DNA from: Saccharopolyspora sp. SCSIO 74807
Lineage (GTDB): Bacteria > Actinomycetota > Actinomycetes > Mycobacteriales > Pseudonocardiaceae
Direction of reading: 5' to 3'
DNA: 64,000 nucleotides
NCBI RefSeq assembly: GCF_037023755.1
Contig: NZ_CP146100.1
Location: forward strand, 5,859,501-5,923,500
A program made the position numbers and the translations under genes. The notes beneath the pieces were generated by a model. The model made no database searches. It had not been told where the DNA came from and was given only the letters and a program-made list of their open reading frames with translations. Of the stretch, positions 10,997 to 61,915 are shown in pieces (within the stretch, counting starts at the first letter, position 1; each line of letters begins with the position of its first letter).

Positions 10997-11042
10997 ACGT
11001 CGCGCTCCTCTCGGTGCGACACCGGCAACCTTTCGTTGCCCG

Positions 11043-14421: not shown

Positions 14422-14495
14422 CTGTACCTCCGAAAAGGCCTGTACCTCCGAAAAGGCTCTATACCTCCGGAAATACCCCTGTACCGTGGAAATAC
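14422..14495. repeat. Tandem 18-20 bp repeats in uxaA leader
   Basis: Two exact copies of CTGTACCTCCGAAAAGGC (14422-14439, 14440-14457) are followed by degenerate copies starting at 14459 (CTATACCTCCGGAAATAC) and 14479 (CTGTACCGTGGAAATAC). The array ends just before the uxaA-like ribosome site. Likely a stacked operator or leader element. The remaining 14076-14421 is gene-free sequence in which I see nothing further. Confidence 0.7.
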
Positions 14496-14504
14496 GGAGT
14501 GCCG

Positions 14505-16049: not shown

Positions 16050-16123
16050 AACCGGAATCCCGCTGAGCGGCGGAATAGGCCACTCGCCGGCTCGGGCGCC
16101 TCTCCCCTGCCTGGAGGCTCGTG

Positions 16124-45764: not shown

Positions 45765-46844
45765 TCACCCCGGATCGGCCGGGAGATCCGCCACGGCGGC
45801 TTCCAGCACGTGGTAACTGCGGTCGACGGCGGTGGCGGACACGAGCCGGAATCCCGAGCGGGCCAGCAGTTCGGCGAATTCCGGCTCCGTGCGCACCCGG
45901 CCGCCCGACGTGGTCAGCAGGATGAGGTCGCGCAGCGGCACGTCCGATTCCGCAGGCGGCCGGGCGTCACCGAGGTTTTCGACCAGCAGCAGCCGGGCGT
46001 GCGGGCGCATCGCGCGTCGGCAGGCCCGCAGGATCTGCGACGCGGGCCGGTCCGCCCAGTCCTGGATGACGCTTTTGAGCAGGTAGGCGTCCCCGCCTGC
46101 CGGGAGCTCGCCGAAGAAGTCGCCGATGACCCGCTCGCAGCGCTGCCCGGCGTCCGCGAACACGGCAGCCCCGCACCCGGCAGCGGTGTCCACGAGAACG
46201 CCCCGGATGCCGGGATTGCGTGCGAGCACGGCGTTCAGCAGCGCGCCGTTGCCGCCGCCGACGTCCACGACGGTGCCGAACCGGGCGAAGTCGACGGCAT
46301 CGGCCAGCGCCGGTGCCACCGCCAGCGTCTCCTGGCCCAGCCCGTCGCGGACAGCGGACGCCAACGCCGGATCCCGGTCGCAGTAGTCGTAGAAGTCGAC
46401 GCCGAACTCGCGCGCGAACCCGGTTTGGCCGGTTCGCACGGTCTGTTCCAAGGATTCCCACGCCCGCCAGACGGGTTCGGCGCAGAACAGCTCGATCATC
46501 GAGGCGACCGGACCCTCGCAGCGCAGTTGGTCGCCGGTGGGGGTGAGGGCGAAACGAGCGGGTCGTGCTTCGGCGACGATCCCGATGTGCTCCAGCCCGC
46601 GCAGCAATCGGTGCAGCGCGTCGGGCCGGGTCTCGGTCTGCGCGGCGAGCTCGTCGACGCTGAGCTGCTCGTCGGCAAGCGCGTCCGGGATCCGGAGGCG
46701 GACCGCCGCGTGCAGCATCCGCGAGGCGAGGTAGCCGTAGCACAGCGTGAGCAGCTGCCCCCGGCCTGCGGCCGCATCGGCGGTGGCCGCGCTCCCCTGC
46801 TCGGACTCGCGATCTCCCGGCGACGCGGTTTCCCGGATCTTCAT
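45765..46844 (-). CDS. O-methyltransferase (plant-OMT-like) of the azole RiPP cluster
   Basis: A 359-residue class I methyltransferase with an N-terminal helical dimerisation part (about residues 30-110; LCYGYLASRMLHAAVRLRIP) and a C-terminal SAM domain (VVDVGGGNGALLNAVLARNP). This is the hydroxyneurosporene/plant-OMT type common in secondary metabolism. Its ATG overlaps the SagB-type gene's stop (ATGA), making it the last gene of the five-gene operon. It could methylate a Ser, Tyr or carboxylate of the peptide; C-terminal O-methylation, as in azolemycin, is one option. Substrate is inferred from the operon only. Confidence 0.85.
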   Translation of the reverse strand: MKIRETASPGDRESEQGSAATADAAAGRGQLLTLCYGYLASRMLHAAVRLRIPDALADEQLSVDELAAQTETRPDALHRLLRGLEHIGIVAEARPARFALTPTGDQLRCEGPVASMIELFCAEPVWRAWESLEQTVRTGQTGFAREFGVDFYDYCDRDPALASAVRDGLGQETLAVAPALADAVDFARFGTVVDVGGGNGALLNAVLARNPGIRGVLVDTAAGCGAAVFADAGQRCERVIGDFFGELPAGGDAYLLKSVIQDWADRPASQILRACRRAMRPHARLLLVENLGDARPPAESDVPLRDLILLTTSGGRVRTEPEFAELLARSGFRLVSATAVDRSYHVLEAAVADLPADPG

Positions 46845-47917
46845 GGGCGTGCTCCGTTCAGTGGCCGGAAATCCGGACTCGTCGGCGCGGAATCGGCGGG
46901 GTTTCCCAACGCGAAGTTCGCCACGTGCACGACGTCCTCCCGGTAGGGGCGCAGGAATTCGGGACTCGCTTGCGGTTCGACCGCTGCGGTGGCGCACGGG
47001 GCGAGTCCGAGATCGGTGGCGACCAGGTACATCGTCTGCAGCAGGCAGCCGGTGTCGCGGTAGATGAGGCTCAGCGTCATGCCGCCGTACTTCCACCGCA
47101 CGCGCTGGTGGTACGCGGCGAGGTAGATGCTCACCGGCGGCGGGTGCTCGGTGAGCGTGGGGCGGCAGATGAGCCGATGCTGCAGGTCGTCCAGCTCCGC
47201 GTCCCATGGCTGCAACTTGGCGAGCTGATGCGCGAACGGGTCGTAGTGGTACGCACCGGGCGGCAGATCCGCCACGGCGCGCGCGAGGACGTAGATCTCC
47301 AGGCTGTGCCTGCCGCCGCCGGAAGCGCTCGGCCGTCGAGTGGCCTGCAACCGGTCCGGTCCGAGCCATCCGCGCACGCGCGCCGAATCGCCCAGGAATC
47401 GGCCCAGTTCCGCTGAACCGACCGGGGTCTCGGCGAAGTCGCGGATGCTCGTGCGCGACCGGAGCAGCTCGCGCAGCGGCCGGCTGTCCCCTTCGCCGGC
47501 GGGCAGCGGGATCACCTCGGACGCTTCGCGGTGGCGCAGCCGAGCCGGTGGGATGTCGACTTCGTCGAGGCGGGAGCGGGCGATGCCGCCCCGCGCGGCG
47601 AGTGCGTGCACCGCGAGTTCCGGGGGCGTCGGGTTCGGCGGGTCGTCCACGACCTGCGCATCGTCGACCGGTTCGACGATGCCCGCCTCCGCGAGCCGCG
47701 CCAGCAGCGCCTCGGTCTCCTGCGGGCCGGGCGCCGCCCCGTCTTCGAGGGCGAGTTCGCCGGGCAGCACGGGTGCCGACATCCGGTTGAGCACTCCGAG
47801 CAACGTCCGCTTGACCGCGAATCGCCGCAGTGTGCGGGAATCGACCAGCACGACGCCGTCGTGCTCGCTGCCCCATTCCAGGATCAAGTCCGGGTTGCGC
47901 CGGTAGCGCCTGTTCAT
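46841..47917 (-). CDS. SagB-type FMN azoline dehydrogenase
   Basis: A 358-residue nitroreductase-fold protein of the SagB/ThcOx type. Residues 1-140 are an N-terminal region with a winged-helix-like start (RRFAVKRTLLGVLNRMSAPV); the nitroreductase domain follows with RTSIRDFAETPVGSAELGRF, GAYHYDPFAHQL and the C-terminal DTGCLLQTMYLVATDLGLAP. These FMN enzymes oxidise thiazolines and oxazolines to aromatic thiazoles and oxazoles. Its presence predicts oxazoles, not only oxazolines, in the product. The start overlaps the amidohydrolase stop (ATGA). The longer open frame upstream lies over that gene and is rejected. Confidence 0.9.
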   Translation of the reverse strand: MNRRYRRNPDLILEWGSEHDGVVLVDSRTLRRFAVKRTLLGVLNRMSAPVLPGELALEDGAAPGPQETEALLARLAEAGIVEPVDDAQVVDDPPNPTPPELAVHALAARGGIARSRLDEVDIPPARLRHREASEVIPLPAGEGDSRPLRELLRSRTSIRDFAETPVGSAELGRFLGDSARVRGWLGPDRLQATRRPSASGGGRHSLEIYVLARAVADLPPGAYHYDPFAHQLAKLQPWDAELDDLQHRLICRPTLTEHPPPVSIYLAAYHQRVRWKYGGMTLSLIYRDTGCLLQTMYLVATDLGLAPCATAAVEPQASPEFLRPYREDVVHVANFALGNPADSAPTSPDFRPLNGARP

Positions 47918-49197
47918 CGCAGTCCTCGCAGTGGTTCGCCGGACGGGTCCGGGCGCGGCACGAACAGGCAGCCGCGAAGCAGGGTCGCTACCACCGGCCC
48001 GATCGGGTAGCGGCGGTGTTCCTGGAAGGCGGTGAACGAGGTCAGCGGCAGCAGGGTCACCGGCTCGTCGCCGGAAGCACCCAGCGCGGCAGTGCCCGGT
48101 TCGCCGCCTGCGGCGGCCGCCGAGAACACCTCGAGCGGTGCCAGACCCGCTTCGACGAGCAGGTTCATCTCCTCCCACAGTCCCCGGCCGGGCAGCACGC
48201 CGGGGTTGGGTGTGTCGCTGCCGGGCACCAGCCGGACTCCTTCCCCGGCCAGGCGCGCCACGACGGCCGACATCTCGGTGCCCGCCGCACGGCAGTGGTG
48301 CAGCTGCCGCTCGGTCCACGGTTGCGAGATCAGCGGCATCCGCCGCCAGAAAGCCGCGGTCGCGGGATCGGCACCGGCGAAACTCCAGGAATCCGCGGCT
48401 TCTACGGCCAACCGGTGCTGCACCACCAAGGTGGGGCACAACCTCGTCCCTGCGGGAAGCTGCGGCCACGAGTCACCGTCCCGTTGCGCCCACCGCCGGT
48501 GCAGGGCGTGCGCGCCGCCGCGGCCGTCACCGCGAGGTGCCAGACATGCGACGTGCTCGATCTCGTCGACCCCGGCGCGCAACGCGGCCGGTGCGCCACC
48601 AGGAGCCGGATGCACGGCCACCCGGAGGTTCCGGGCGTGTGCCCGGCGCACCACGGCTGCGATCAGCTCTTCCGGGAACTGCGCGTACAGCTTGATCCAA
48701 GAGGCTCCGCGCGCTGCTGCCGCCTCGACGACGCCGGGCAACTCCTCGGCTTTTTCCCATCGGGTCGCGATGTCCAGCCGAGGTTCTCCCGGGCGGTCCA
48801 GCAGCGGGCCGCCCAGCACGACCTCCGGTATCGGGTCTCCGCAATGCCGGGCGGCGGGCACGGGGTGCTCGGTGCCCGCGGTCGAACCGAGGTCCCGGAT
48901 TCGGCAGATGCCGTAGGCCACGAAGTCCGGCAGCGCCATTCCCGGGTGCAGGTGCACGTGGGCGTCTTCCAGCGCCGGAGCCGCCAGAGCCTGCGGGTAT
49001 CGGCGCGCGACCGGTGGGCCGCCGGGTGCTGCCGCGCCGCGGCGCAGCGTCCACCTCCGGTCGCTCCACACCGTCAGAACGTGCTTGTCGCGCACCAAAC
49101 CCGCGCCGGTCAGCGCCCCGCCGACCTCGATCCGATAGGGGGCGTTCGCGCGGCACAGCGAGTGTTCGACGCGCGGCGCCTCCGGTGTGCAGGGCAT
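47914..49197 (-). CDS. Imidazolonepropionase-like metal-dependent amidohydrolase
   Basis: A 427-residue amidohydrolase-superfamily enzyme. Metal residues appear in order: HVHLHPG (HxH), WIKLYAQFP (possible carboxylated Lys), AVHPAPGG, EIEHVACLA, and the final Asp in LVPGSDTPNPG. Homologues are iminohydrolases, peptidase-like proline dipeptidases and the amidohydrolases of bottromycin-type RiPP clusters. Lying between the cyclodehydratase and the dehydrogenase with tight spacing (6 bases and a 4-base overlap), it must act in maturation: trimming the acidic follower or leader, or hydrolysing a ring, are options. No ordinary protease is in the operon. No signal peptide. Confidence 0.88.
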   Translation of the reverse strand: MPCTPEAPRVEHSLCRANAPYRIEVGGALTGAGLVRDKHVLTVWSDRRWTLRRGAAAPGGPPVARRYPQALAAPALEDAHVHLHPGMALPDFVAYGICRIRDLGSTAGTEHPVPAARHCGDPIPEVVLGGPLLDRPGEPRLDIATRWEKAEELPGVVEAAAARGASWIKLYAQFPEELIAAVVRRAHARNLRVAVHPAPGGAPAALRAGVDEIEHVACLAPRGDGRGGAHALHRRWAQRDGDSWPQLPAGTRLCPTLVVQHRLAVEAADSWSFAGADPATAAFWRRMPLISQPWTERQLHHCRAAGTEMSAVVARLAGEGVRLVPGSDTPNPGVLPGRGLWEEMNLLVEAGLAPLEVFSAAAAGGEPGTAALGASGDEPVTLLPLTSFTAFQEHRRYPIGPVVATLLRGCLFVPRPDPSGEPLRGLR

Positions 49198-49203
49198 GGG
49201 TCC

Positions 49204-51426
49204 TCACGCCATCGGCAGCGGCAGCGGGTTGAGCTCCTGCTCGCCGAGCGGCTGCTCGCGCAGGCCCATCCGCACCGGTGCCTCGAACACGCGGCGGCCG
49301 CCGAGATGCCGGAACTTCTGGGAGAAGACCACCGGCTGCAGCCCCGGAACGATGCTGCGGACGACGCTCACCCCGCACTCGGCGACGTCGATCGGCGTGA
49401 TGTCCACGGCGACGGGCCGATGACCGGCCGCGGCCAGCCGCGCCACGATTTCGTCCACATCGGACTCACTCGGTCGCCGGGACGGCGGCACCTGCTGCAG
49501 CGGCCCCTCGCGCGTCCAGTCCAGCAGTTCGGCGCGGTCCGCGCGGCAGTAGTAGAGGTAGAAGTCCCACATGTGCCCCAACGTGACGCCGTCCTCGGGC
49601 ACCGCGCGGGTCCGGAACAGGCCGTCGATCTGGCAGAACCCGAGTTCCAGTTCCTCGCAGGCGCCGAGCAGCGCTTCGCCGGTGTCCAGCGCGGATCGGC
49701 TGGAGTGCAGGACGATCGGCCGTTCCGGAGTCGTCAGCCGCCCCTGCAGCAGGATCGTCGGGATGCCGAGGTCCGTCGTGATGTCCTTGGCGATGACCTC
49801 GATACCGCGCAGCCGCATCCGTTCCGCCACGGTGCGCACCGCACCCGGCGGGAGGCCGTCCAGGTCGAGGCTGGGCGCGCGGAGCCGGTTGTACCAGTAG
49901 ACCGCGAAGGCATCGCGTTCGACCACTTCGAGCAGCCCGCCGCGAAGCGCCTGGTCGCGGGTACTACCCGCGGCCAGCCCGGTGGAGACCGAATTCAACA
50001 GGCGTTCGCGGCGGTTCGGCGCCTTGTAGGGCACGTAAACGGTGCCTGCAGGCACGTAGCGCGGTTGCCCGGTGCTCAGGTCGACTCCCACGACCCAGTC
50101 GATCACCAGCTCCGGGTGGTAGGGCGCGAAACGCCGGAACGAGCGGTATTCCGCCGGTGAACCCAGCGGCAGCTCGCGCGGATCCACCGCGGCGGCGCCC
50201 AGCTCCGACAACGAGCCGCGCACGAAGTCGTCCGGGTCGTAGATGCCCGCCGCGTAGCGCTCCAGCCCCTCGCCCAGCGCGCACACGCGTGCTTCCAGCG
50301 GATCGTGCTTGGCCGAGCCGCTCACCGTCCACGCCGAGACCGCGGAGAACCACCCCGTCTCCGTGCCGCCGACGGTGTTGGCCAGCGTCGTTTCCGAACC
50401 CTCCGGGCGCCGGTCCTGAACCGAGGCGAAGATGCCGGTGAGCGGGTCGATGGCGCGCTGCATCCGCTGCCAGCTCGCGGCGAGCGCGGGCGCCGTTCCG
50501 TCCTGCTGGGGCGGCGTGCGCACCTCGCGAGCGCAGGCGGGACACCCCGGCAGGTGCAGAGCGGGATGCCGCGTGCTCGCCCAGGAATCCAAGTCCAGTT
50601 CGACGAGTTCGGCCGCATCGCCACCATCGCCGGTACCGGCACCTACCGCGCGCAACACGGTGTGCGCCACCAGCCCGATCATGGCGTCGTGGCTGGGCCA
50701 GCCGGGCTCCGAGCAGGTGCCGAGCAGGAGTTCCAGCGGCGCGTCGGCGATGTCCTGGCCGGGCCAGTTCGCGCGGATCCGCCGGACCACGCACAGCGGG
50801 CACGCCGTGCTCGGCGGGCGCAGCACCGCGGTGTGGAGTTTCCGCGGTGTGCAGGCGAAAACGACGATCGGTGCCCGGTTCCCGAGCGCGCGTTCGGTCA
50901 CGGCCCGCAGGTCGTCCTCCGGCGCGACGAGCGGAAGCACCCAAGCCTGCGCGGGGCGGCCGTCCGTCCCGTCGCGGCCCGTAGCGTCGCGGGCAGTCCC
51001 GTCGCGGGCCGCCGCGTCGCAGGTCGTCGCGACCCCGTTGTTCCGCAGGGACGATGCGATCGAGATGCTCAGCTGATCGTCGCCCAGCACCCGCACCGCT
51101 CCGGCTTGCGCGCGCGGAGGCTCGTAGGAGAGGTGCCTGCGCAGCGGTTGATCGGCGGGCACCATCAAGCCGCGTTCGGCGAGCCCGGCGAGGGTGCTTT
51201 CCGGGAGTTCCCACCACGCCACCTCCGCCGTTGCGCCGGCCCGCGGCACCTCCGGTCCCGCCGCTCCCCTTTCAGCCGCTCCCCTTTCAGCCGCTTCCGG
51301 GGCCGTTTCCCGGGCGGCGACCGGAACGCGCAGCGCGCCGCTGCTGCTGCACACGTACAAATAGCGCCCGTGCCAGCGGAAGCGCACATCGGCGCGCGGA
51401 ACCATCGACGAATGCGACGTGCTCAA
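49204..51426 (-). CDS. Fused E1-like/YcaO azoline cyclodehydratase
   Basis: A 740-residue fusion. Residues 1 to about 310 are an E1-like (ocin-ThiF/TOMM C) domain with zinc pairs CPLC (209-212) and CPAC (295-298) expected to recognise the leader. Residues about 320-740 are YcaO, with ALGEGLERYAAG and STGLAAGSTRDQALRGGLLE carrying ATP/Mg residues, ending PLPLP just before the stop; a PxPxP tail marks azoline-forming YcaO proteins. It should convert Ser, Thr or Cys of the precursor to azolines by backbone phosphorylation. The TTG start (51426) has GAGGTG five bases ahead; ATG 51405 is an alternative. The N-terminal domain contains a low-complexity insert (DGTARDATGRDGTDG). Confidence 0.93.
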   Translation of the reverse strand: MSTSHSSMVPRADVRFRWHGRYLYVCSSSGALRVPVAARETAPEAAERGAAERGAAGPEVPRAGATAEVAWWELPESTLAGLAERGLMVPADQPLRRHLSYEPPRAQAGAVRVLGDDQLSISIASSLRNNGVATTCDAAARDGTARDATGRDGTDGRPAQAWVLPLVAPEDDLRAVTERALGNRAPIVVFACTPRKLHTAVLRPPSTACPLCVVRRIRANWPGQDIADAPLELLLGTCSEPGWPSHDAMIGLVAHTVLRAVGAGTGDGGDAAELVELDLDSWASTRHPALHLPGCPACAREVRTPPQQDGTAPALAASWQRMQRAIDPLTGIFASVQDRRPEGSETTLANTVGGTETGWFSAVSAWTVSGSAKHDPLEARVCALGEGLERYAAGIYDPDDFVRGSLSELGAAAVDPRELPLGSPAEYRSFRRFAPYHPELVIDWVVGVDLSTGQPRYVPAGTVYVPYKAPNRRERLLNSVSTGLAAGSTRDQALRGGLLEVVERDAFAVYWYNRLRAPSLDLDGLPPGAVRTVAERMRLRGIEVIAKDITTDLGIPTILLQGRLTTPERPIVLHSSRSALDTGEALLGACEELELGFCQIDGLFRTRAVPEDGVTLGHMWDFYLYYCRADRAELLDWTREGPLQQVPPSRRPSESDVDEIVARLAAAGHRPVAVDITPIDVAECGVSVVRSIVPGLQPVVFSQKFRHLGGRRVFEAPVRMGLREQPLGEQELNPLPLPMA

Positions 51427-51439
51427 TCCTTCACCTCAT

Positions 51440-51497
51440 CCGGTGCTGTGCGGACTCGGGTGCCGTGCTCCGGTGCCGTGCGGACTCCAGTGCCGCG
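51440..51497. repeat. 30-bp imperfect direct repeat before the ycaO-type gene
   Basis: Two copies with 30-base period start CCGGTGCTGTGCGGACTC (51440) and CCGGTGCCGTGCGGACTC (51470). They lie in the 241-base gap between precursor and cyclodehydratase genes; role unknown. Confidence 0.6.
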
Positions 51498-51595
51498 CCG
51501 AATCAGGGGATGCCCACGATTGCGCACCCGCTGCAGACTCGGCAACAGGGCCCAACGCCCTGATCAGCCGAGCAGAAGCCGGCGCGTTTCGGAGA

Positions 51596-51625
51596 CCGCA
51601 GGCCGAGTTCGCACCCGGCCTGCGG
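51596..51625 (-). terminator. Attenuator-like hairpin between precursor and enzymes
   Basis: Perfect ten-base arms CCGCAGGCCG and CGGCCTGCGG with a 10-base loop, 43 bases beyond the precursor stop. RiPP operons often use such read-through hairpins to make more precursor than enzyme message; that role is inferred here. Confidence 0.55.
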
Positions 51626-51667
51626 AGCCCTGGCATTGCGGCGACCCGCGTCAGCCGCGTGCGCCCG

Positions 51668-51778
51668 TCATTCCTCGTCGTCGCCCGACTCGTCGACGGC
51701 GAAGGAGGACGAGGAGCTGATCGGCACCGCCTCGGTGTCCTTCGTGGTGATCTCCTCGAATTCGTCCATGAGCTCCAT
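51668..51778 (-). CDS. Azole RiPP precursor peptide with Ser5-Phe core
   Basis: A 36-residue peptide too short for usual gene calling. The leader is acidic (MELMDEFEEITTKDTEAVP), then residues 20-26 read I-S-S-S-S-S-F, followed by an acidic tail AVDESGDDEE. The five consecutive Ser are ideal substrates for the fused YcaO next door and, after SagB oxidation, would give up to five oxazoles. The pattern Ile-Ser-run-Phe recalls the C-terminal half of plantazolicin, but here a ten-residue follower comes after Phe. GGAAGGGAG lies seven bases before the ATG at 51778 (a second Met at residue 4 is possible). It is first in the operon. The function of the product is unknown. Confidence 0.88.
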   Translation of the reverse strand: MELMDEFEEITTKDTEAVPISSSSSFAVDESGDDEE

Positions 51779-51826
51779 GAAAACACTCCCTTCCGGATTT
51801 TCGTGGAATGCCGAATTGGCTTCCTC

Positions 51827-51855
51827 ATATTATCCAGATGATGGTGAAAGGTCCA
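51827..51855 (-). promoter_or_regulatory. Promoter of the azole RiPP operon
   Basis: On the minus strand TGGACC (51855-51850), a 17-base spacer and TAATAT (51832-51827) precede the precursor start by about 48 bases. The AT-rich setting (a TCATATTATCC tract) is unusual for this genome and marks a clear promoter. Confidence 0.65.
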
Positions 51856-51986
51856 CCACCATCACCGGAAAAGGCTACCGCTGCTCCGTTGCGGTTAATT
51901 TCGAGCCCAAAACTCCGTCCTGCAACTGCTACCGACGAGCGATTCCCGCAATTGTGCGCACTCCGCCCGGCACGATCAGATAGCGC

Positions 51987-52016
51987 GCAAATATTCAGCA
52001 TTCATGGCAAATATTC
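51987..52016. repeat. 20-bp-phased direct repeat upstream of RiPP promoter
   Basis: GCAAATATTC occurs at 51987-51996 and 52007-52016, exactly 20 bases (two helical turns) apart, each with an AATATT palindrome. It lies about 130 bases upstream of the -35 on the minus strand, an arrangement expected for an activator. The rest of 51856-52164 holds no gene. Confidence 0.55.
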
Positions 52017-52164
52017 GGATTCGTCGCACGGTCACATGCGAATGAACGGCGCCCCGCACGAGTCGCCCGCAGCGACCGCCCGGCGCCAGCATCGCGAACC
52101 GGAACCAGCGCGCCGACTCCGGCGGGAAGCCCGTGGGGTTCCGGCTGTGTGAGGCTCCGCGGAT

Positions 52165-52929
52165 CTACCGCGTCGCGACGACGGTTCCCCAGACGTGCGT
52201 GAGGGTGCGGTCGCCCGCGGGGCCTTGCGGGCGCAGGCCCGTCGGCGTGCCGCCTGCGAGTTCGGCGTCGAAGGTGCGGTGGATCTCGGCGCGGTCCTGC
52301 TCGGGAGTGCCGCTGCGCGACATCCAGTCTTCGACGTCGAGCGGGTTGTCCCTGGTCGTCGTGGACACCACGGTGGCCCCGGCTTCGGTGAGCATCCGGT
52401 GGATCTCTTCGACCGTGCGGGTGCGGTTGTGGCTCGGATCGCGCAACCGCTCCACGCGGGTGTTCTCCGCGGCGAGTTCCGGAGCTTCGAGGACCATGTC
52501 GGTGATGCCGATCCGGCCGCCTTCGCGGGCCACGCGGGCCATCTCGCGCACGACCGCCGCCGGGTCGGCGACCTGGTGCAGCGAGATGCGGCAGGCCACC
52601 AGGTCGAACTGGGCGTCCAGCCAGGGCAGGGCCGTCGCGTCGCCGCGGGCGAAGGTGATGTTGCGCAGTCCCTCGGCCCGCGCCAGCCGGTCGCCTTGCG
52701 CCAGCATCTCGGGCGTCAGGTCGATCGCGCTGACGTGCCCGAGCCGCGGCGCGAGCGCGCGGCCGAGGTGCCCGGCGCCGCAGGCCACGTCCAGCGCCTG
52801 TTCGCCCTCCCGCGGATCGAGCTGGTCGACGATCCAGTCCAGGCCGCTGGTGGCGAAGCCGGTGTCGGTGAACGTGCCTGCCTGCAGCCGGAACTGCTCC
52901 CGGACCCGGTCGTCGTGCGCGCCGGTCAT
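52165..52929 (-). CDS. Class I SAM methyltransferase (UbiE-like)
   Basis: A 254-residue small-molecule methyltransferase: ALDVACGAGHLGRALAPRLG is the SAM loop (residues about 45-65), AIDLTPEML the acidic strand, then FDLVACRISLHQVADP. It resembles UbiE/Coq5 and many antibiotic methyltransferases. GGAGGGC directly precedes ATG 52929. It lies between the azole operon (its stop to the RiPP promoter is about 300 bases) and the polyketide sugar genes, and could belong to either or neither. A sugar or peptide N/O-methylation is possible. Confidence 0.87.
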   Translation of the reverse strand: MTGAHDDRVREQFRLQAGTFTDTGFATSGLDWIVDQLDPREGEQALDVACGAGHLGRALAPRLGHVSAIDLTPEMLAQGDRLARAEGLRNITFARGDATALPWLDAQFDLVACRISLHQVADPAAVVREMARVAREGGRIGITDMVLEAPELAAENTRVERLRDPSHNRTRTVEEIHRMLTEAGATVVSTTTRDNPLDVEDWMSRSGTPEQDRAEIHRTFDAELAGGTPTGLRPQGPAGDRTLTHVWGTVVATR

Positions 52930-53606: not shown

Positions 53607-55046
53607 ATGCCGCCTCCGGCTGGAACCGGTTTGCTGCGCAAACCGGACACGACGCTGCCGCACCGGCTGGCGCGCTCGGCCCGCACCGTGCAGGACGCCG
53701 CGGTGCCGATGCCGCGGCTGCGCGCGTGGATCGCCGAGCGCGGCGCCGCGCAGCTGCACCACGTCGAGCGGATCCCGTTCGCGGACCTGCACAGGTGGCG
53801 CTTCGACGACGCCACCGCCGACCTCGCGCACGACTCCGGGCGGTTCTTCCGCATCCAGGGGTTGCGGGTGCGCAGCGATCACGGTCCGGTGACCGGCTGG
53901 ACCCAGCCGATCATCAACCAGCCGGAGATCGGCATCCTCGGCATCCTGGTGCGCGAGATCGATGGCGTGCTGCACTGCCTGATGCAGGCGAAAACCGAGC
54001 CCGGCAACGTCAACGGCGTCCAGCTGTCGCCGACCGTGCAGGCCACCCGCAGCAACTATCAGCGGGTGCACGACGGCAACGCGGTGCCGTACCTGGAGCA
54101 CTTCCGGGACGCGCCGGAGCGCAACGTGCTCGCCGACGTGCTGCAGTCCGAGCAGGGTTCGTGGTTCTACCGCAAGCGCAACCGGAACATGGTCGTGGAG
54201 GTGCGCGAGCCGCTGCCGGAGCACGAAGACTTCCGCTGGGTCACGCTCGGGCAGCTGCACGCGCTGCTCGCCGAGGAGAACCTGGTGAACATGGACGCGC
54301 GGACGGTCCTTTCCTGCTTTCCCGGCGGGTTCGAGGGGGCCGCCGAGGGGTCCGCTTCGGACTCGTTGGGCGCCGCGCTGACCGGCTCCGGCGATCCGGC
54401 CGCGGGCAGCCTGCACACCACCTCCGAGGTGCGCAGCTGGATCACGGCGCAGCACGCCGAGCACCAGGTCCGCGCCGACCTGATCCCGCTCGGCGCGGTC
54501 CGCGGCTGGCGCCGCACCCCGGACGAGATCCGGCACGACGAGCACAACTTCTTCAGCATCGTGGCCGTGGACGTGCGCTCGAACAGCCGCGAGGTGACCG
54601 GCTGGACCCAGCCGTTGCTGCGCCCGCACGGCATCGGCATGGTGGCGCTGCTGGTCAAACGAGTGGACGGCGTGCTGCACGCACTGGTCAACGCCAGGGT
54701 CGAACCCGGTTACCTCGACGTCGTGGAGCTGGCACCGACCGTGCAGTGCACCCCGGAGAACTACGACCGGCTGGGCGTGGACTACCGGCCACCGTTCCTG
54801 GACGCGGTGCTGCACCGGCCCGCCGAGCGGGTGCTGTTCGACACCGAGCTGTCCGAGGAAGGCGGCCGGTTCCACCAGGCCCGGAACCGGTACCAGATCA
54901 TCGAGGTGGAACCCGGTTGCACCGCGGACGATCTGCCGGACTTCCGGTGGCTCACGCTGCACCAGCTCACCGAGCTGCTCAAGCACAGCCACTACGTCAA
55001 CGTGCAGGCGCGCAGCCTGATCGCTTGCTTGCGGGGGCTGTCATGA
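53607..55046 (+). CDS. NDP-hexose 2,3-dehydratase
   Basis: A 479-residue protein with the duplicated architecture of NDP-4-keto-6-deoxyhexose 2,3-dehydratases (EryBVI/SpnO type): the two halves each carry a repeat of GWTQP(II/LL) near residues 95 and 335, and each ends in FRW(V/L)TLxQL before LV/HYVN. The enzyme removes the 2-hydroxyl of NDP-4-keto-6-deoxyhexose, giving a 2,6-dideoxy precursor with the 3-ketoreductase. GAGGAG precedes ATG 53607 by five bases. The next gene starts within its stop codon (ATGA), so they are translationally coupled. First of the deoxysugar operon. Confidence 0.95.
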   Translation: MPPPAGTGLLRKPDTTLPHRLARSARTVQDAAVPMPRLRAWIAERGAAQLHHVERIPFADLHRWRFDDATADLAHDSGRFFRIQGLRVRSDHGPVTGWTQPIINQPEIGILGILVREIDGVLHCLMQAKTEPGNVNGVQLSPTVQATRSNYQRVHDGNAVPYLEHFRDAPERNVLADVLQSEQGSWFYRKRNRNMVVEVREPLPEHEDFRWVTLGQLHALLAEENLVNMDARTVLSCFPGGFEGAAEGSASDSLGAALTGSGDPAAGSLHTTSEVRSWITAQHAEHQVRADLIPLGAVRGWRRTPDEIRHDEHNFFSIVAVDVRSNSREVTGWTQPLLRPHGIGMVALLVKRVDGVLHALVNARVEPGYLDVVELAPTVQCTPENYDRLGVDYRPPFLDAVLHRPAERVLFDTELSEEGGRFHQARNRYQIIEVEPGCTADDLPDFRWLTLHQLTELLKHSHYVNVQARSLIACLRGLS

Positions 55047-56023
55047 GCCCGGTTCGGCTGGGTGTGCTCGGATGCTCGGCGATCGCCCGGCGCCGGAGCC
55101 TGCCCGCGGCCGCGGAGGTGCCGGAGCTGGTCACCACCGCGGTCGCCAGCCGAACCAGGGAGAAGGCCGAACGCTTCGCCGCCGAATTCGGTGCCACAGC
55201 GACGGATTACGAGTCGCTGGTGTCCGATCCGGACATCGACGCGATCTACCTCTCGCTGCCGAATTCGCTGCACCACGAGTGGACGCGGCGCGCGCTGGAC
55301 GCAGGTAAGCACGTGCTGTGCGAGAAACCGCTGACCGGCAGCGCGGCGGCAACTCGCGAGCTGACCGCGCTAGCGGACGAGAAGCGCCTCGTGCTGCGGG
55401 AGAATTTCGCCTTCCTGCACCATCCCGTGCACGACCACGTTCGCCGACTGCTCGACCAGGGACGCATCGGTCCGCTTCGGACTTTTACCGCGACGTTCGG
55501 CATTCCGCCGCTGCCCGGCGAGGACATCCGGTATTCCGCCGAACTCGGTGGCGGCGCGTTGCTCGACGTCGGCGTGTACCCGTTGCGGGCGGCGCTGCTG
55601 CTGCTCGGGCCGTCGCTGTCGCTGGTGGGCGCGACGCTGCGAATGGATGCTTCGTCCGATGTCGACGTGGCCGGAAACGTGTTGCTGACCGCGGACTCCG
55701 GGGTCTTCGCCAACCTCGAGTTCGGCTTCGAGCACAGCTACCGAGCCCGCTACGCGCTCTGGGGCGGCACGGCGTGGCTCGGCCTCGATCGGGCGTTCAC
55801 CCCGCCGCCGCAGCACCAGCCGGTCCTGCGCATCGAGGAGCAGGACCACGCCGAGGAGATCGTGCTGCCGCCGGCGCACCAGTTCCGCACCTCGCTTGGC
55901 TCGTTCGCGCAAGCCGTGCAACAGCGCACGCCGGAGGAAAAGCGCTGGGTGGCGGCTGCGGACGCGTTGGCCGCGCTGGTGGACGAGGTGCGCGAGCGCG
56001 CCGTGCGGGTCGAGGCGGCCTGA
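55043..56023 (+). CDS. NDP-hexose 3-ketoreductase, Gfo/Idh/MocA family
   Basis: A 326-residue Gfo/Idh/MocA oxidoreductase: Rossmann LGVLGCSAIARR at the start, the IYLSLPNSLHHEW and HVLCEKPLTGSA signatures, and the C-terminal dimer domain from about residue 125. Such enzymes reduce the 3-keto group formed by the 2,3-dehydratase (SpnN/KijD10-type). ATG 55043 overlaps the dehydratase stop by 4 bases. With the dehydratase and the 4-ketoreductase it makes a complete 2,6-dideoxyhexose branch; the stereochemistry at C3 cannot be told. Confidence 0.93.
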   Translation: MSPVRLGVLGCSAIARRRSLPAAAEVPELVTTAVASRTREKAERFAAEFGATATDYESLVSDPDIDAIYLSLPNSLHHEWTRRALDAGKHVLCEKPLTGSAAATRELTALADEKRLVLRENFAFLHHPVHDHVRRLLDQGRIGPLRTFTATFGIPPLPGEDIRYSAELGGGALLDVGVYPLRAALLLLGPSLSLVGATLRMDASSDVDVAGNVLLTADSGVFANLEFGFEHSYRARYALWGGTAWLGLDRAFTPPPQHQPVLRIEEQDHAEEIVLPPAHQFRTSLGSFAQAVQQRTPEEKRWVAAADALAALVDEVRERAVRVEAA

Positions 56024-56024
56024 A

Positions 56025-56795
56025 GTGGAGATCGTCGGCCGCGGCTTCCTCGCCCGCCATCTCGCGCCGCACTTCGGTGCGCGCTACCCGGACGTCACCG
56101 TGATCGCTGCCGGGGTCTCCACGGCGGCCAGCACCGACTTCGCCGCTTTCGACCGGGAAGCGGAGCTCGTCGCGGACGTGCTGCGGCGATGCCGGAAGCA
56201 GCGGCGCACCGCGGTGTTCCTGTCCACCGCCTCTTCCGGGGTCTACGGCGCGGAGGGCTCGCCGGGCACCGAGGACGGCCCGGTCTTCCCGCGCACCGTC
56301 TACGGGCGGCACAAGCTCGCGCTGGAGCGGGTGTGCGCGCTGTCCGGCGCGCCCTACCTGATCCTGCGGCTCACCCACCTCGTCGGTGCCGGTCAGCAGC
56401 CGGACCAGCTGCTACCCGCGTTGACCCGCGGAGTTCTCTCCGGCGCGGTGGCCGTGCAGCCGGGCGCATACCGGGACCTGCTGGACGTTCGGCACGTTGC
56501 ACCGACACTCGATGTGTTGCTGCGGCGGGGAATCCGCAATGACGTCTTGAATATCGCGTCCGGCCGCCCGATCGCGGTCCCGGACATCGTGGACGGTATC
56601 GAATCCCGGATGGACGTCCGCGCCGAGCGCCGCACCGTGCCCCGACCGCCGGAGCGCACTGTGGTCGACACCGCGAAGTTGCGCAGGCTGGTGCCCGAGT
56701 TCGCCGCGCACGACTTCGGTACGGGCTACCTAGACGATCTCCTGGACCGCTACCTGAGCGCTTTCGTGCAAGACGCCGTCGTCTTCAGCGGTTGA
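56025..56795 (+). CDS. NDP-hexose 4-ketoreductase (extended SDR)
   Basis: A 256-residue epimerase/dehydratase-fold reductase. The N-terminal NAD strand is reduced to EIVGRGFLARHLAPHFG, and the YxxxK catalytic pair is YGRHK with STASSGVYG upstream. A short extended SDR of this kind reduces the C4 ketone of NDP-4-keto-2,6-dideoxyhexose, the last step before transfer. GTG at 56025 follows the previous stop by one base. It converges on the glycosyltransferase gene with its stop 4 bases away. Identification relies on the sugar context; EryBIV-like. Confidence 0.85.
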   Translation: MEIVGRGFLARHLAPHFGARYPDVTVIAAGVSTAASTDFAAFDREAELVADVLRRCRKQRRTAVFLSTASSGVYGAEGSPGTEDGPVFPRTVYGRHKLALERVCALSGAPYLILRLTHLVGAGQQPDQLLPALTRGVLSGAVAVQPGAYRDLLDVRHVAPTLDVLLRRGIRNDVLNIASGRPIAVPDIVDGIESRMDVRAERRTVPRPPERTVVDTAKLRRLVPEFAAHDFGTGYLDDLLDRYLSAFVQDAVVFSG

Positions 56796-56799
56796 GGGT

Positions 56800-58026
56800 T
56801 CAGTCGCGCGCCAGGGCTTCCAACTTGCCGACCACATCGGACGGTGCGGGCAGCGATGCGGCCGCCGCGGCGAGCTCGCGGGCGGATTCGGTGAACGACG
56901 ATTCCTCCAGCAGGCGACCGAAAGCGGCCTTGAGCCCGTCGACCTCCGCCGCGTGGTTCGGAATGTCCAGCCCGGCACCGGCCGCGCTGAACCGCCCGGC
57001 CATCACCGGCTGGTCGTACCCGCACGGCAATGCGAGCTGCGGCACTCCGGCCACCAGCGAGGTCATGCTCACTCCCCCGCCGCCGTAATGCGCCACCGCA
57101 GCGCATTCCGGCAACACCAAGCTCAGCGGCACGTCGGAGCGCACGATCACACCGTCCGGCAACGGTCCGGCCGCCGCGGCGTCGGCGGGTGAGGAAAGCA
57201 GCAGCACCTCCGCGCCCGCCGCGTTCGCGGCCTGAACGACCTGAGACATCTTGTTCACAACAGGCCCGAACGTGCGGGTCGCCGAGCGGCCCCACACCAC
57301 GCACACCCGCGGTTTCCCGCCGCACGGCGGGATATCGCCCGGAACGCTGCCCGGACCGTTGTACGGGATGTAGCGACTCGGAACGGCCGCAGCTTCGTAA
57401 GACGGCCGCAGCTGCGGCGGGCACGGGTCCAGCACGTGATCGATGTGGTGGAACCCCATCTCGCCGAGGCCGTAACGCTCGAAGGCGGCACTGGTATCCA
57501 CCGGTGCGTGCCCGTCCGGCGCCTCGCCGTAATCGTCGGCTGTGCCGAACGGGCCCCACAGCTGGAGCACGTCGGGTGCGCCGGTCATCTTCGCGACCAG
57601 CGGCCCTTCCAAGCTCTCCATGTCGTGCACCACGAGCTGCGGCCGCCATTCACGGGCGAAGGCCACGGCCGCGTCGGTGCTGCGGGTGGCGTTCGCGAGC
57701 ATCTCCGGACGTAATTTCTCGTGCCACGCCGCGAAATCGAACGTTGCGAAGTCGACCGGCTCCGCGGTGTCCGGGTGCAGCGGCGGCTCCGGGTACGGCC
57801 AGCCGCCGCGCAATGCCGTGAGCAGGTTGATCAGCCGCGCCCCGCGCAGCAGGTCCAGGCTCGCCAGCCGCGGCACGGGCGTCATCCCGGCCCGCGCAAC
57901 CGGGTCCACATCGGACTCGTTGCACAGCACCCGAACTTCGTGCCCGGCGGCCTGCAACGCCCATCCCAGCGGAACCATCGGGAAGTAGTGACCCGGCCAC
58001 GGGGAAACCGCGAACAGCACTCGCAT
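56800..58026 (-). CDS. Macrolide-type glycosyltransferase (GT1, activator-dependent type)
   Basis: A 408-residue GT-B glycosyltransferase of the EryCIII/DesVII-like group. The N-terminal domain starts VLFAVSPWPGHYFPMVPLGW, the acceptor-side middle has the WHEKLRPEML helix, and the C-terminal donor signature is AHYGGGGVSMTSLVAGVPQL with PCGYDQPV. These enzymes transfer NDP-deoxysugars to polyketide aglycones and usually need a P450-like activator protein; none is in the window. ATG 58026 is convergent with the 4-ketoreductase and divergent from the exporter genes. Confidence 0.92.
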   Translation of the reverse strand: MRVLFAVSPWPGHYFPMVPLGWALQAAGHEVRVLCNESDVDPVARAGMTPVPRLASLDLLRGARLINLLTALRGGWPYPEPPLHPDTAEPVDFATFDFAAWHEKLRPEMLANATRSTDAAVAFAREWRPQLVVHDMESLEGPLVAKMTGAPDVLQLWGPFGTADDYGEAPDGHAPVDTSAAFERYGLGEMGFHHIDHVLDPCPPQLRPSYEAAAVPSRYIPYNGPGSVPGDIPPCGGKPRVCVVWGRSATRTFGPVVNKMSQVVQAANAAGAEVLLLSSPADAAAAGPLPDGVIVRSDVPLSLVLPECAAVAHYGGGGVSMTSLVAGVPQLALPCGYDQPVMAGRFSAAGAGLDIPNHAAEVDGLKAAFGRLLEESSFTESARELAAAAASLPAPSDVVGKLEALARD

Positions 58027-58214
58027 GGCCGCATCGTATTCCGCCGCAAATGGCAGAATCACTAGTGTCGTGGGCGGATTCCGAACGCCGATCTGGTCGT
58101 ACCACGAGTCTTCCGGTGTTAAGCCCCTTGGTGCGGGACTCGGACTGTCCCATGCTGCACCTCGCGGCGACCCGGTTTGCTGGGACACACGACGAGAAAC
58201 GGGGAATCCGACCC

Positions 58215-59204
58215 ATGACCGTGTTCACGACCGCCCGCACCGTCCGATCCGCGCTCGATCCGGAACCGGACGCGGTGATGATCGAAGCCGTCGACGTGGG
58301 CAAGCGGTTCGGCTCGGTGCCCGCGCTGGAGTCGGTGAGCCTGCAGGTGCCGAAGGGCAGCGTGCTCGGCCTGCTCGGGCACAACGGTGCGGGCAAGACG
58401 ACGCTGGTGAACATCCTGACCGCGATGCAGCCGGCCGGTTCGGGCACCGCCCGCGTCGCCGGGTTCGACGTGGCGGCGCAGCCGAAGGAGGTGCGCAAGC
58501 GGATCGGGCTGACCGGCCAGTTCGCCGCGGTCGACGAGCGGCTCAGCGGGCGGGAGAACCTGACCATGCTGGCCCGGTTGCTCGGCGCGGACACCTCGCG
58601 GGCCAAGGCGCGCGCCGACGAGCTGCTCACCGCGTTCGACCTGACCGAGGCGTCCGGACGGCAGGCCAGGACCTACTCGGGCGGGATGCGCAGGCGCCTG
58701 GACCTGGCGGCTTCGCTGGTCGGCAATCCCGAAGTGATCTTCCTGGACGAGCCGACCACCGGGCTGGACCCGACCAGCAGGCGAGCCATGTGGGAGATCG
58801 TCTCCGGGCTGGTCGCCGAGGGCACCACCGTCCTGCTGACCACGCAATACCTGGACGAGGCCGATCGGCTGGCGGACACGATCACGGTGCTCTCGGCCGG
58901 GCGGATCGTCGCCAGCGGCTCCGCCGCGGAGCTCAAAGCACGCGTCGGGCAGCGCACCGTGACCGTCGTCCCGCCGCACGGCGGCGACCCGGAGGCCGGG
59001 TGCGCGGCGCTGCGGCGAGCGGGAATGGACCCGTCGGTGGGCCGGGACGGCACCGCGATCATCACGCCGATCGAGGCTTCCCGGGACACCGCGGCGGTGA
59101 TCCGGGTGCTCGACGAGGCCGGAGTGGACGTCGCCGAGCTCGCGTTCGGCGAGCCGACGCTGGACGACGTGTACCTGGCGCTGGCGCGGCGCACCGCGGG
59201 CTGA
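58215..59204 (+). CDS. ABC exporter ATP-binding subunit, DrrA-type
   Basis: A 329-residue ATPase of the DrrA/daunorubicin-resistance group: Walker A GHNGAGKTT (residues about 56-64), signature YSGGMRRRLDLA, Walker B VIFLDEPTTG, and the C-terminal DrrA extension. With the next permease it should export the polyketide or a related drug-like compound and provide self-resistance. ATG 58215 has no strong ribosome site, but the upstream frame lacks family similarity. The location between glycosyltransferase and PKS supports a role in the polyketide cluster. Confidence 0.94.
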   Translation: MTVFTTARTVRSALDPEPDAVMIEAVDVGKRFGSVPALESVSLQVPKGSVLGLLGHNGAGKTTLVNILTAMQPAGSGTARVAGFDVAAQPKEVRKRIGLTGQFAAVDERLSGRENLTMLARLLGADTSRAKARADELLTAFDLTEASGRQARTYSGGMRRRLDLAASLVGNPEVIFLDEPTTGLDPTSRRAMWEIVSGLVAEGTTVLLTTQYLDEADRLADTITVLSAGRIVASGSAAELKARVGQRTVTVVPPHGGDPEAGCAALRRAGMDPSVGRDGTAIITPIEASRDTAAVIRVLDEAGVDVAELAFGEPTLDDVYLALARRTAG

Positions 59205-59269
59205 CCCGACCGGCCGGGAACGCGCGGTACTTCCCGAACCACCACCTCTCCGACCACAGTGGAGCGACA

Positions 59270-60097
59270 ATGACCGCGACCGCACCGGTTGCAGCGGGCG
59301 CGACGACCGCGCCGAGATGGAACGGCAGCTCCGTCGCAACCCAGATAGCCGTGCTCACCGAGCGATCGCTGCGCGCGTTCGCCGGCGATCCCGGGCTGGT
59401 GCTGATCGGCCTGATCCAGCCGGTGATGACGCTGTTCGTGTTCACCCAGATCTTCACCAACTTCGCGCTCGCCGCGAAACTGCCCGCGGGCACCGAGTAC
59501 CTCGATTTCCTGCTGCCCGCGGTGCTGGTCAACCACGTCGTGCAGACGTCTTCGCAAACCGGAATCGGGCTGGTGGAGGACCTGCGCAACGGCATCGTCG
59601 CCCGGCTGCGCTCGATGCCGATCATCCCGAGCGCGCTGCTGCTGGCGCGCAGCGCCTCCGACTTGATCCGCAGCGCTATCCAGGTGGCGCTGATCCTGGT
59701 GCTGGCCTGGGCGGTGCTCGGCTACTCCCCCGCGGGCGGATTCGGCGGGACGCTGCTGTCCGCGCTGCTCACCCTCGCCGTCGGCACCGCGCTGAGCTGG
59801 GCGTTCCTCGCGATGGGGGCCTGCTTGCGGCGCACCGAGCCGATGCAGAACATCAGCGTGCTGGTGATGGTGCCGCTGATGTTCATCTCCAGCGCGTTCG
59901 TCCCGATCGAGGAACTGCCGGACTGGCTGGAGTTCGTCGCCCGCATCAACCCGCTCACCTACGCCGTGGACGCTTCCCGCGCCGTCGCGCTGGGCCTGGA
60001 CGGCACCTACCTGATCGGCCCGTCCCTGCTCATCAGCATCGCCGTCACCGCCGTCAGCGCAGGCATCGCCGTCCGAGGCTTCCGCAAGCCGCTGTAA
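59270..60097 (+). CDS. ABC exporter permease subunit, DrrB-type
   Basis: A 275-residue ABC-2 permease with six membrane segments and the conserved VEDLRNGIVARLRSMPI region between segments 2 and 3 and MFISSAFVPIEELPDWLE near residue 205, both diagnostic of DrrB. It pairs with the ATPase 65 bases upstream. A strong terminator follows the stop. Confidence 0.94.
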   Translation: MTATAPVAAGATTAPRWNGSSVATQIAVLTERSLRAFAGDPGLVLIGLIQPVMTLFVFTQIFTNFALAAKLPAGTEYLDFLLPAVLVNHVVQTSSQTGIGLVEDLRNGIVARLRSMPIIPSALLLARSASDLIRSAIQVALILVLAWAVLGYSPAGGFGGTLLSALLTLAVGTALSWAFLAMGACLRRTEPMQNISVLVMVPLMFISSAFVPIEELPDWLEFVARINPLTYAVDASRAVALGLDGTYLIGPSLLISIAVTAVSAGIAVRGFRKPL

Positions 60098-60115
60098 CCC
60101 CGCTCGTCCCCCGCC

Positions 60116-60156
60116 CCGGCCCGCCGCGCCCTCCTGCACGCGGCGGGCCGGTTTTC
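60116..60156 (+). terminator. Rho-independent terminator after the exporter
   Basis: Thirteen-base perfect arms (CCGGCCCGCCGCG and complement, 60116-60128 and 60139-60151) with a 10-base loop, then a TTTT run. The rest of 60157-60327 has no supported gene. Confidence 0.8.
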
Positions 60157-60327
60157 GTCGGCTCACGGGGAAATCGGCTCCCCATCGGCGTAATCGGCCG
60201 TGGTCGTGGCCTTGCTCTCGAGATCTTCTTCGATTGGATGCCCCGCCGGGACTCGCGGCCGGGGGAACGCGAGCCACCGGCGGGGCGCGGTCTGCCACCG
60301 GGCTCGGGAAACCGGCGGCAGACCGGG

Positions 60328-60597
60328 TCAGGCGGCCGTGCCGGACTTCCAGTCCGACGGCCGTTGCGGGACGATCCGCGATGATCCGGGCCCTGATTCG
60401 TCGCTGTTCCACGTCGTAAACAGGCAGGCTTGGCAGATTTCTCGGGTGTCCTGGGGCAGAGCCTGGACGAGCACGCGGGACATGCGGCCGACCAACGGGT
60501 GACCGCAGGCAGCGACGATGACATTCCCTCGCGCCGAGCAACCGACCACGTGCCACCACGAACACCACTCCGAGGTGATCCAGGCGTAGTGGTTCAC
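60328..60597 (-). CDS. Small Cys-rich protein in GntR-linked operon
   Basis: An 89-residue protein beginning VNHYAWITSEWCSWWHVVG, with ACGHPLVGRMSRVLV and a CQAC pair, probably a small zinc site. Similar Trp/Cys-rich proteins occur near conjugative or regulatory loci of actinomycetes, with no known function. The GTG at 60597 overlaps the stop of the 31-residue ORF by 4 bases (GTGA), which decides the start over the GTG at 60600. Third gene of a three-gene minus-strand unit. Confidence 0.65.
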   Translation of the reverse strand: MNHYAWITSEWCSWWHVVGCSARGNVIVAACGHPLVGRMSRVLVQALPQDTREICQACLFTTWNSDESGPGSSRIVPQRPSDWKSGTAA

Positions 60598-60689
60598 CAC
60601 GAATCACCCAGCCCCGAGGCCGACCGCACCAAGATCTCCAACAGCACCAGCTGTCCGATCACCGCGAGATTCAGCAAATCCTTGTTCAT
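60594..60689 (-). CDS. 31-residue hydrophobic microprotein
   Basis: A 31-codon frame (MNKDLLNLAVIGQLVLLEIL..., ending SGLGDSW) that sits exactly between its neighbours: its ATG overlaps the previous stop by 4 bases and its TGA overlaps the next start by 4 bases. The central leucine-rich half could form one membrane helix. Coupling at both ends is the main support; too short for usual callers. Function unknown. Confidence 0.55.
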   Translation of the reverse strand: MNKDLLNLAVIGQLVLLEILVRSASGLGDSW

Positions 60690-60958
60690 CGCGCGATTTC
60701 CCAGCCTGTGCTGCCGAACACGACCTCATCGCACTGACCGGCCGATGACTCAGATCCCAGTGCAAGCGCCCTGGTGCAGAACATGCACGGCGCCCCCGCT
60801 GGCCGGTCGAACACCTCTACGTCGTCGGCGCGCATTACCAGCTCGCACAACGTCCGATACAGCTCACCCGGTGTCGCCGTCGCGACGTGCACCGTCCGCC
60901 GCGCTTCGCCGACCAAGCCAAGCCGATACCGGACCCGCACCACTTCGTTAATCAGCAC
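60686..60958 (-). CDS. Small CxxC protein in GntR-linked operon
   Basis: A 90-residue protein with a NEVVRVRYRLGLVGEARRTV start, LCELVMRADDVEVFDRP and a PCMFC metal-type motif. Proteins of this type accompany GntR regulators in actinomycete accessory DNA. GTG 60958 has a strong GGAGGGGGTGAG ribosome site. First gene of the minus-strand unit, divergent from the GntR/UTRA gene and separated from it by a palindrome. Confidence 0.7.
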   Translation of the reverse strand: MLINEVVRVRYRLGLVGEARRTVHVATATPGELYRTLCELVMRADDVEVFDRPAGAPCMFCTRALALGSESSAGQCDEVVFGSTGWEIAR

Positions 60959-61020
60959 CGCTCACCCCCTCCATCGATGTCGCGTGAGCGCTACTGCGCA
61001 ACAGCCGCGCACCGATTGCT

Positions 61021-61094
61021 CGTCTTACTCGTCTGTGACGAGTAAGACGTTACGTTGACCGCCCGGGATGGGCAAGTACCAAACGAGTGAGACG
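61021..61094. promoter_or_regulatory. GntR operator: 13-bp perfect palindrome plus second site
   Basis: CGTCTTACTCGTC (61021-61033) and its exact complement GACGAGTAAGACG (61037-61049) flank TGT. A second half-like site ACGAGTGAGACG (61083-61094) has one change. They lie between the divergent small-gene unit and the GntR gene, the expected place for autoregulatory control. TTGACC at 61055 may be a -35. Confidence 0.75.
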
Positions 61095-61134
61095 ATTGGG
61101 GACGCACGACAAATCCCACGTGTGAGAGGTACCG

Positions 61135-61875: not shown

Positions 61876-61915
61876 CCGAGGACCGCCAGGCGGGACGGCA
61901 CGGTCGTCCCGCCGG

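Follow-up and report, generated by a model that had tools for sequence, protein, structure and literature searches.

What does a short gene with five consecutive serine codons make, and how is its product processed? The gene lies in a 64,000-nt stretch of contig NZ_CP146100.1 of Saccharopolyspora sp. SCSIO 74807 (the window), where an initial annotation had predicted a 36-residue RiPP precursor at the head of an operon. Size, position and place in the operon were borne out; the strand, which that annotation did not give, is minus (Table 1). The ORF consists of 36 codons plus a stop, starts with ATG, runs from 51778 to 51668 and encodes MELMDEFEEITTKDTEAVPISSSSSFAVDESGDDEE. A plus-strand reading of the same interval gives a different peptide and was discarded. 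The best explanation is an operon for a linear polyazole RiPP, in which rings would form on the Ser run, a PurAH-like enzyme would remove the follower, a methyl group would probably cap the product, and a peptidase encoded elsewhere would remove the leader. We put the probability of this reading at roughly 0.7.

Table 1. Features of the azole-peptide operon, in window coordinates
Feature	Position	Strand	Details
Ribosome-binding-like purine stretch	51786..51794	-	GGAAGGGAG, ends 7 nt before the precursor ATG; identified by eye
Precursor peptide gene	51668..51778	-	leader MELMDEFEEITTKDTEAVP, core block ISSSSSF, follower AVDESGDDEE
ISSSSSF codons	51701..51721	-	ATC AGC TCC TCG TCC TCC TTC
Hairpin between precursor and E1-YcaO gene	51596..51625	-	13 bp, 92% paired, without T-run
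E1-like/YcaO fusion cyclodehydratase	49204..51426	-	740 aa, TTG start or ATG at 51405; PF02624 218.1 bits
PurAH-like amidohydrolase, predicted follower-peptide hydrolase	47914..49197	-	427 aa; family profile versus PDB 6i5s
SagB-type FMN azoline dehydrogenase	46841..47917	-	358 aa; TIGR03605 116.5 bits, over cut-off; PF00881
O-methyltransferase	45765..46844	-	359 aa; PF00891 136.2 bits; PF08100 52.4 bits

A leave-one-out profile HMM, built from 16 relatives with the window sequence excluded, matched the precursor ORF at E = 3.9e-6 (23 bits). This was the sole significant match, the next best of 1027 window fragments having E = 3.3. When the whole genome was searched with an alignment of 17 relatives, the precursor again ranked first (E = 9.4e-4; 1.07 for the second-ranked sequence) and was the only copy better than E = 1. 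Together, these searches rule out a chance small ORF. Nor is the Ser run a simple DNA repeat, because its five codons are mixed. Downstream, the 111-nt stretch containing the hairpin folds with z = -2.60, and five relatives have stable hairpins in the same gap (scored without a shuffle control). The hairpin is a possible attenuator, which would raise the precursor over the enzymes. Neither a sigma-70 promoter nor a T-tailed terminator was found in 51400-52200, a result that carries little weight for an actinomycete.

All on the minus strand, the precursor gene is followed by genes for an E1-YcaO fusion, an amidohydrolase, a SagB-type dehydrogenase and an O-methyltransferase. The precursor had been described as next to a cyclodehydratase and an azoline oxidase. 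Both are indeed in the operon, but the E1-YcaO gene begins only after a gap of 241 nt, and ahead of the dehydrogenase comes the amidohydrolase, which went unmentioned. The E1-YcaO fusion exceeds the cut-off of TIGR03604 (255.8 bits) and falls just under that of TIGR03882 (36.0 versus 36.9 bits), and its relatives align along nearly the full length. Among PDB sequences, CalO6 is nearest to the O-methyltransferase. Neither a leader peptidase nor a transporter was identified in the operon, and this counts against the best explanation. Dehydrazoles need a lanthipeptide-type dehydratase, according to excerpts of PMC10676384; no such enzyme is among the operon's genes, and dehydrazoles were rejected.

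A contig search with the single E1-YcaO protein as query gave no relative; with an E1-YcaO alignment as query, it gave 18 loci. At 16 of these 18, a precursor HMM, whose seed held copies from eight of the loci plus the window, found a small ORF better than E = 1e-4. The exceptions were L054, which has almost no upstream DNA, and L065, where YcaO is broken and the match reached only E = 1.1. In a YcaO tree of 18 sequences (broken L065 left out), the window belongs to a clade of six, with support of 1.0. The other five members come from Streptoalloteichus, Actinopolyspora and Saccharothrix (S. tenebrarius L051 and L063, S. hindustanus L048, A. biskrensis L049 and S. carnea L050), and twelve Streptomyces or Actinacidiphila loci form the other branch. 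With the tree rooted by these other loci, L051 and then the window branch first within the clade. All six clade members have the same plan of leader, seven-residue core and acidic follower. These homologous clusters support the initial annotation's view of the ORF as a RiPP precursor with a Ser-run core and a removable acidic follower. Within the host family, an E1-YcaO match at E ≤ 1e-40 was present in 12 of 390 genomes (two candidates scored per genome), five of them, the own genome included, at 49% identity or more; plasmid records gave no match at E 1e-40.

Two groups outside the clade are worth recording. L065 (Streptomyces sulphureus) is a cluster remnant: its YcaO match is split in two, its precursor-like ORF is decayed, and it adjoins genes syntenic with L058. 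Nine Streptomyces loci (L055-L062 and L064) have the core FAGHSC(L/F)(C/S) upstream of E1-YcaO; they carry the clade's leader motif and a SagB gene and are without the clade amidohydrolase. We know of no product with such a core.

The clade contains 19 precursor copies, including that of the window, and 16 are of the regular seven-residue type. Irregular copies (QTIRSCL in S. hindustanus; LTVCLSLSL and DFVSESLCALSF in S. tenebrarius) were left out of the core counts. Positions 2, 4 and 6 are Ser, Thr or Cys in 16/16 regular copies. At positions 3 and 5, the same residues are found in 4/4 contiguous cores (ISSSSSF in the window; VCSSTCF, VSCSCCF and ACSCCCF in L051) and in 0/12 alternating ones, such as LTVTVSF, ISATASF and LTLTITL, where hydrophobic residues stand between the ring positions. 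Conservation of the Ser run, which had been proposed as a check, is therefore partial: a run is kept at two of six loci (CSSTC, SCSCC and CSCCC in L051), and the other four clade loci alternate. Position 7 is F in 12 copies, L in three and Y in one. This position and parts of the follower are better conserved (entropy of 1.0 bits at position 7, 0.9 at position 8 and 0.3 at position 11) than positions 1, 3 and 5 (2.3 to 3.0 bits). Position 7 may be part of the follower's recognition site, or a conserved end of the product. The window peptide is divergent, with Ala at position 8 and Glu at 11, where the regular relatives have V/I and D (15/15). This divergence, like the leave-one-out score of 23 bits, counts against the best explanation.

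How many of the serines would be cyclized? Only at positions 2, 4 and 6 are heterocyclisable residues present without exception in the 16 regular copies; at positions 3 and 5, 12 of these copies have residues that cannot be cyclized. It could be, then, that only Ser-2, Ser-4 and Ser-6 of the window core are cyclized and Ser-3 and Ser-5 stay free, giving a tris-oxazole like the predicted products of the alternating relatives. We consider this unlikely, since positions 3 and 5 behave as all-or-none across the clade. Among the L051 paralogues, moreover, four of the five ring positions vary and all stay Ser, Thr or Cys, two of the changes requiring two bases; at positions 3 and 5, S-C and T-C exchanges preserve the class. 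This is the pattern one would expect from selection for five rings, although it is not proof. Contiguous cyclization may in fact be ancestral, because in the YcaO tree the branches of L051 and the window lie below those of the alternating loci, and the azolemycin-like relatives described later carry contiguous runs (VSTTTI, VCSCTV).

Several of the clade loci have additional features. L048 contains an array of seven precursor copies (6607-8855) and L063 an array of five (7111-8692), with varied cores and similar followers; three of these copies are irregular or decayed. A protein of 388-465 aa is encoded beside all four alternating-core loci (L048:5003-6256, with relatives in L049, L050 and L063; minus strand, upstream), and the L048 protein has no Pfam match at E 0.05. 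Beside three of the four lie another set of related genes (L048:13513-15093, L049:5078-6604 and L063 from 13451). The L048 member matches a PLP-dependent decarboxylase family at 27.2 bits (cut-off 27) and could tailor a terminus. The contiguous-core locus L051 is flanked (7145-17359) by a P450 and a radical SAM gene, and also by a gene for a protein without a Pfam match that appears glycosyltransferase-like by eye.

What removes the follower? The amidohydrolase has no Pfam match at 1e-3, Amidohydro_1 scoring 15.7 bits, under its cut-off of 25. The five relatives are 53-56% identical to the window protein. Residues H80, H82, K169, H196, H215 and D328, which we take to be metal ligands by analogy with other amidohydrolases, are invariant across the six. 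With the family profile, the best PDB match was 6i5s, the bottromycin amidohydrolase PurAH (E = 1.7e-14, about 310 positions), and the second was an arginine carboxypeptidase (7.9e-7, best stretch 45 positions). The ligand motifs of the dinuclear amidohydrolase align with PurAH, and the consensus identity is 79/291. Single sequences gave a more mixed picture. PurAH ranked first in the PDB for the L051 protein (5.1e-8) and second for the window protein (E = 1.1e-4), after a partial match to another amidohydrolase (5.1e-5). This weak solo match of the window protein counts against the best explanation.

By tblastn at 1e-5, all six clade loci have the amidohydrolase gene and none of the 13 others does, these 13 including L054, a 3.3-kb contig, and decayed L065. 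In three of the six clade loci (L048, L050 and L063), a single ORF encodes both amidohydrolase and SagB, which suggests that cutting and oxidation are coupled. In a sample of the order, 2/298 genomes had an amidohydrolase match at E ≤ 1e-25, and in a sample of the class 1/394, the own one, but these are subsamples that include none of the four other known carriers, with 4 to 6 candidates scored per genome, and so test absence weakly. Besides the own genome, the order sample yielded one 33% identical enzyme, with no YcaO, SagB or O-methyltransferase match within 19.5 kb. Given this clade-specific, PurAH-like enzyme, a product that keeps its acidic end, which the initial annotation had allowed for, is less likely.

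In bottromycin biosynthesis, PurAH removes the follower, according to excerpts of PMC10885120 and PMC7136475. The title of its own paper, as cited in these excerpts, calls PurAH thiazoline-specific, whereas the last ring here would come from Ser; this counts against the best explanation. A non-RiPP enzyme described in parts of PMC10127204 is only 14% identical to PurAH. The amidohydrolase could also have a different role, for instance hydrolyzing a by-product or helping ring formation, with the follower cut by general proteases or kept. The azolemycin-like loci and other sister loci, those of Streptomyces included, do carry an acidic or hydrophilic tail behind the core but no clade amidohydrolase, so a tail does not require the enzyme, which also counts against the best explanation; and the bottromycin protein BtmI was once proposed to act in macrocyclization (excerpts of PMC5103208). 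We nevertheless find a different role distinctly improbable, because the enzyme co-occurs with an acidic follower after F, L or Y in all six loci, its fusion to SagB in half of them ties it to ring maturation, and among solved structures the family profile comes closest to a follower hydrolase.

From gene content and these comparisons, we infer the following pathway for the linear polyazole. The leader would recruit the E1-YcaO fusion, which would turn the Ser residues of ISSSSSF into oxazolines. The SagB-type enzyme would then oxidize most or all of these to oxazoles, giving up to five contiguous rings. The amidohydrolase, dedicated to this step and of the bottromycin PurAH type, would remove the acidic follower, the cut falling at the last azoline or, one residue further on, behind Phe. 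The carboxylate freed at the C-terminus would probably be capped by the O-methyltransferase, as a methyl ester, and the leader would fall to a peptidase encoded elsewhere. The methyl site is a guess, because PF00891 enzymes mostly methylate small-molecule hydroxyls. The O-methyltransferase gene is present at both contiguous-core loci, the window and L051, and at none of the four alternating ones; L051 is the only one of the 18 related loci to have it.

The fate of Phe depends on which precedent is followed. PurAH cuts directly after thiazoline, and by analogy Phe would leave with the follower. The plantazolicin core ends in ...IISSSSTF, and the azolemycin and plantazolicin cores keep their terminal hydrophobic residue, a precedent by which Phe would stay. 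We slightly favor its leaving, since the conservation of position 7 follows that of the follower and the fusions suggest coupling. A bolder version of the pathway, which we hold only tentatively, joins an azolemycin-type E1-YcaO/SagB pair to a bottromycin-type hydrolase. Cutting would occur directly after the last azoline, with Phe as a recognition residue of the follower, and the product would be a bare polyazole ending in an azole carboxylate, which would carry a methyl ester in the window strain. Joint changes at positions 3 and 5 would have switched the clade's product between two backbones, pentazole (contiguous) and tris-azole (alternating).

Judged by its sequence, the operon would be of the LAP/TOMM type, and new by virtue of its follower hydrolase and core grammar. 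The nearest characterized relative is probably azolemycin, a linear azol(in)e peptide of Streptomyces sp. FXJ1.264 with the core VVSTCTI. Two sister loci may be its kin, judging from the azolemycin core and gene list: L053 (S. sparsogenes; VIVSTTTI) and L052 (A. oryziradicis; VVVCSCTV), each with an E1-YcaO fusion and SagB as in the window. Both have the FEE..EPE leader motif in common with the window, and their YcaO sequences are 44-46% identical to its own. They are without the amidohydrolase, whereas the window has both the amidohydrolase and a PF00891 methyltransferase. A diverging FAD monooxygenase lies near the core in L053, as does an LCM-family methyltransferase (both by Pfam), and L052 has relatives of both (blastp grouping). 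The FAD monooxygenase of azolemycin makes its N-terminal oxime; among window genes called in 42-60 kb, none is related to the L052/L053 monooxygenase. Passages of PMC7136475 report oxime groups and C-terminal O-methylation for azolemycin.

Bottromycin shares with the window the metal-ligand motifs of PurAH/BotAH and a C-terminal follower on the precursor. Otherwise the systems differ. Bottromycin has two stand-alone YcaO proteins and no E1 partner in the account given in parts of PMC4603692, no canonical leader in excerpts of PMC10885120, and no flavin dehydrogenase in those of PMC5103208, whereas the window has an E1-YcaO fusion, an N-terminal leader and a SagB-type enzyme. Membership of the bottromycin group was rejected on the strength of the fusion and the leader.

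Plantazolicin is a membrane-active chain of contiguous azoles. Its core resembles that of the window: in each, a hydrophobic residue precedes a contiguous Ser/Thr run, and Phe follows it. Passages of PMC4603692 give plantazolicins five to six heterocyclisable residues near the C-terminus, cores mostly beginning with Arg, two azole blocks and a specific N-methyltransferase. In the window there is a single block, Arg is absent, and both a follower and an O-methyltransferase-type enzyme (PF00891/PF08100) are present. With the initial Arg and the second azole block missing, membership was rejected, and the likeness to plantazolicin drawn in the initial annotation survives as a chemical analogy and not as kinship. 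Telomestatin, as described in parts of PMC5469769, derives from a Ser-run core in a 42-aa precursor, with a YcaO protein, a flavin oxidoreductase, and both a leader and a follower to remove. However, telomestatin and YM-216391 are polyoxazole macrocycles, unlike the linear product proposed here. The telomestatin cluster also encodes two peptidase-annotated and extra cyclodehydratase-like proteins (same excerpts), none of which is among the window's four enzymes.

The combination of a PurAH-type hydrolase with an azole-peptide operon would be a new union of two known pathways. In the main text of one TOMM survey (PMC4603692, seen in excerpt form), the words 'amidohydrolase', 'follower', Streptoalloteichus, Saccharothrix and Actinopolyspora do not occur, and open-access titles and abstract beginnings mentioned no PurAH-like enzyme in connection with a leader-dependent azole RiPP, a weak form of absence. 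If the proposed pathway is true, bottromycin's macrocycle is no prerequisite for PurAH-type cutting, which works with a standard leader-dependent heterocyclase, and the follower hydrolase would provide a way to release the C-terminus tracelessly. Telomestatin, which binds G-quadruplexes, is one of the contiguous oxazole chains (parts of PMC5469769). The natural set of 16 cores, with its strict 2-4-6 phase and contiguous variants, lends itself to direct tests of ring order and of the rules for the cut site.

Is the operon intact? In G401, a conspecific genome, homology ends at window 45865 and resumes with own-genome DNA at 5965780, about 60.4 kb beyond the break (5905365). An ORF at the G401 junction (L081:1255-1917) combines a start that is histidinol-dehydrogenase-like by eye with the last O-methyltransferase codons (window 45765-45865). 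Because of the break, the resumption point and this junction ORF, we conclude that the operon was probably in the species' ancestor and was lost in G401 together with the window's neighboring sugar and polyketide genes. Its absence from G401, apparently through a deletion of about 60 kb, would also fit an operon that is fossil or silent and makes nothing. We regard that as very improbable. All five ORFs are open over their full length, and the dehydrogenase start codon overlaps the amidohydrolase stop, as the O-methyltransferase start does the dehydrogenase stop. Third-position GC is high in the E1-YcaO and amidohydrolase genes, the amidohydrolase metal ligands are conserved, and the hairpin between precursor and enzymes is stable.

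Adjacent to the operon, window positions 53607-63952 encode an NDP-hexose 2,3-dehydratase, a DrrA-type ABC ATPase and a PKS module fragment with KR and carrier domains. These deoxysugar and polyketide genes are probably a separate cluster. The own genome contains a second YcaO gene, a 469-aa open frame (C1:428163-429134, L002), far from the window.
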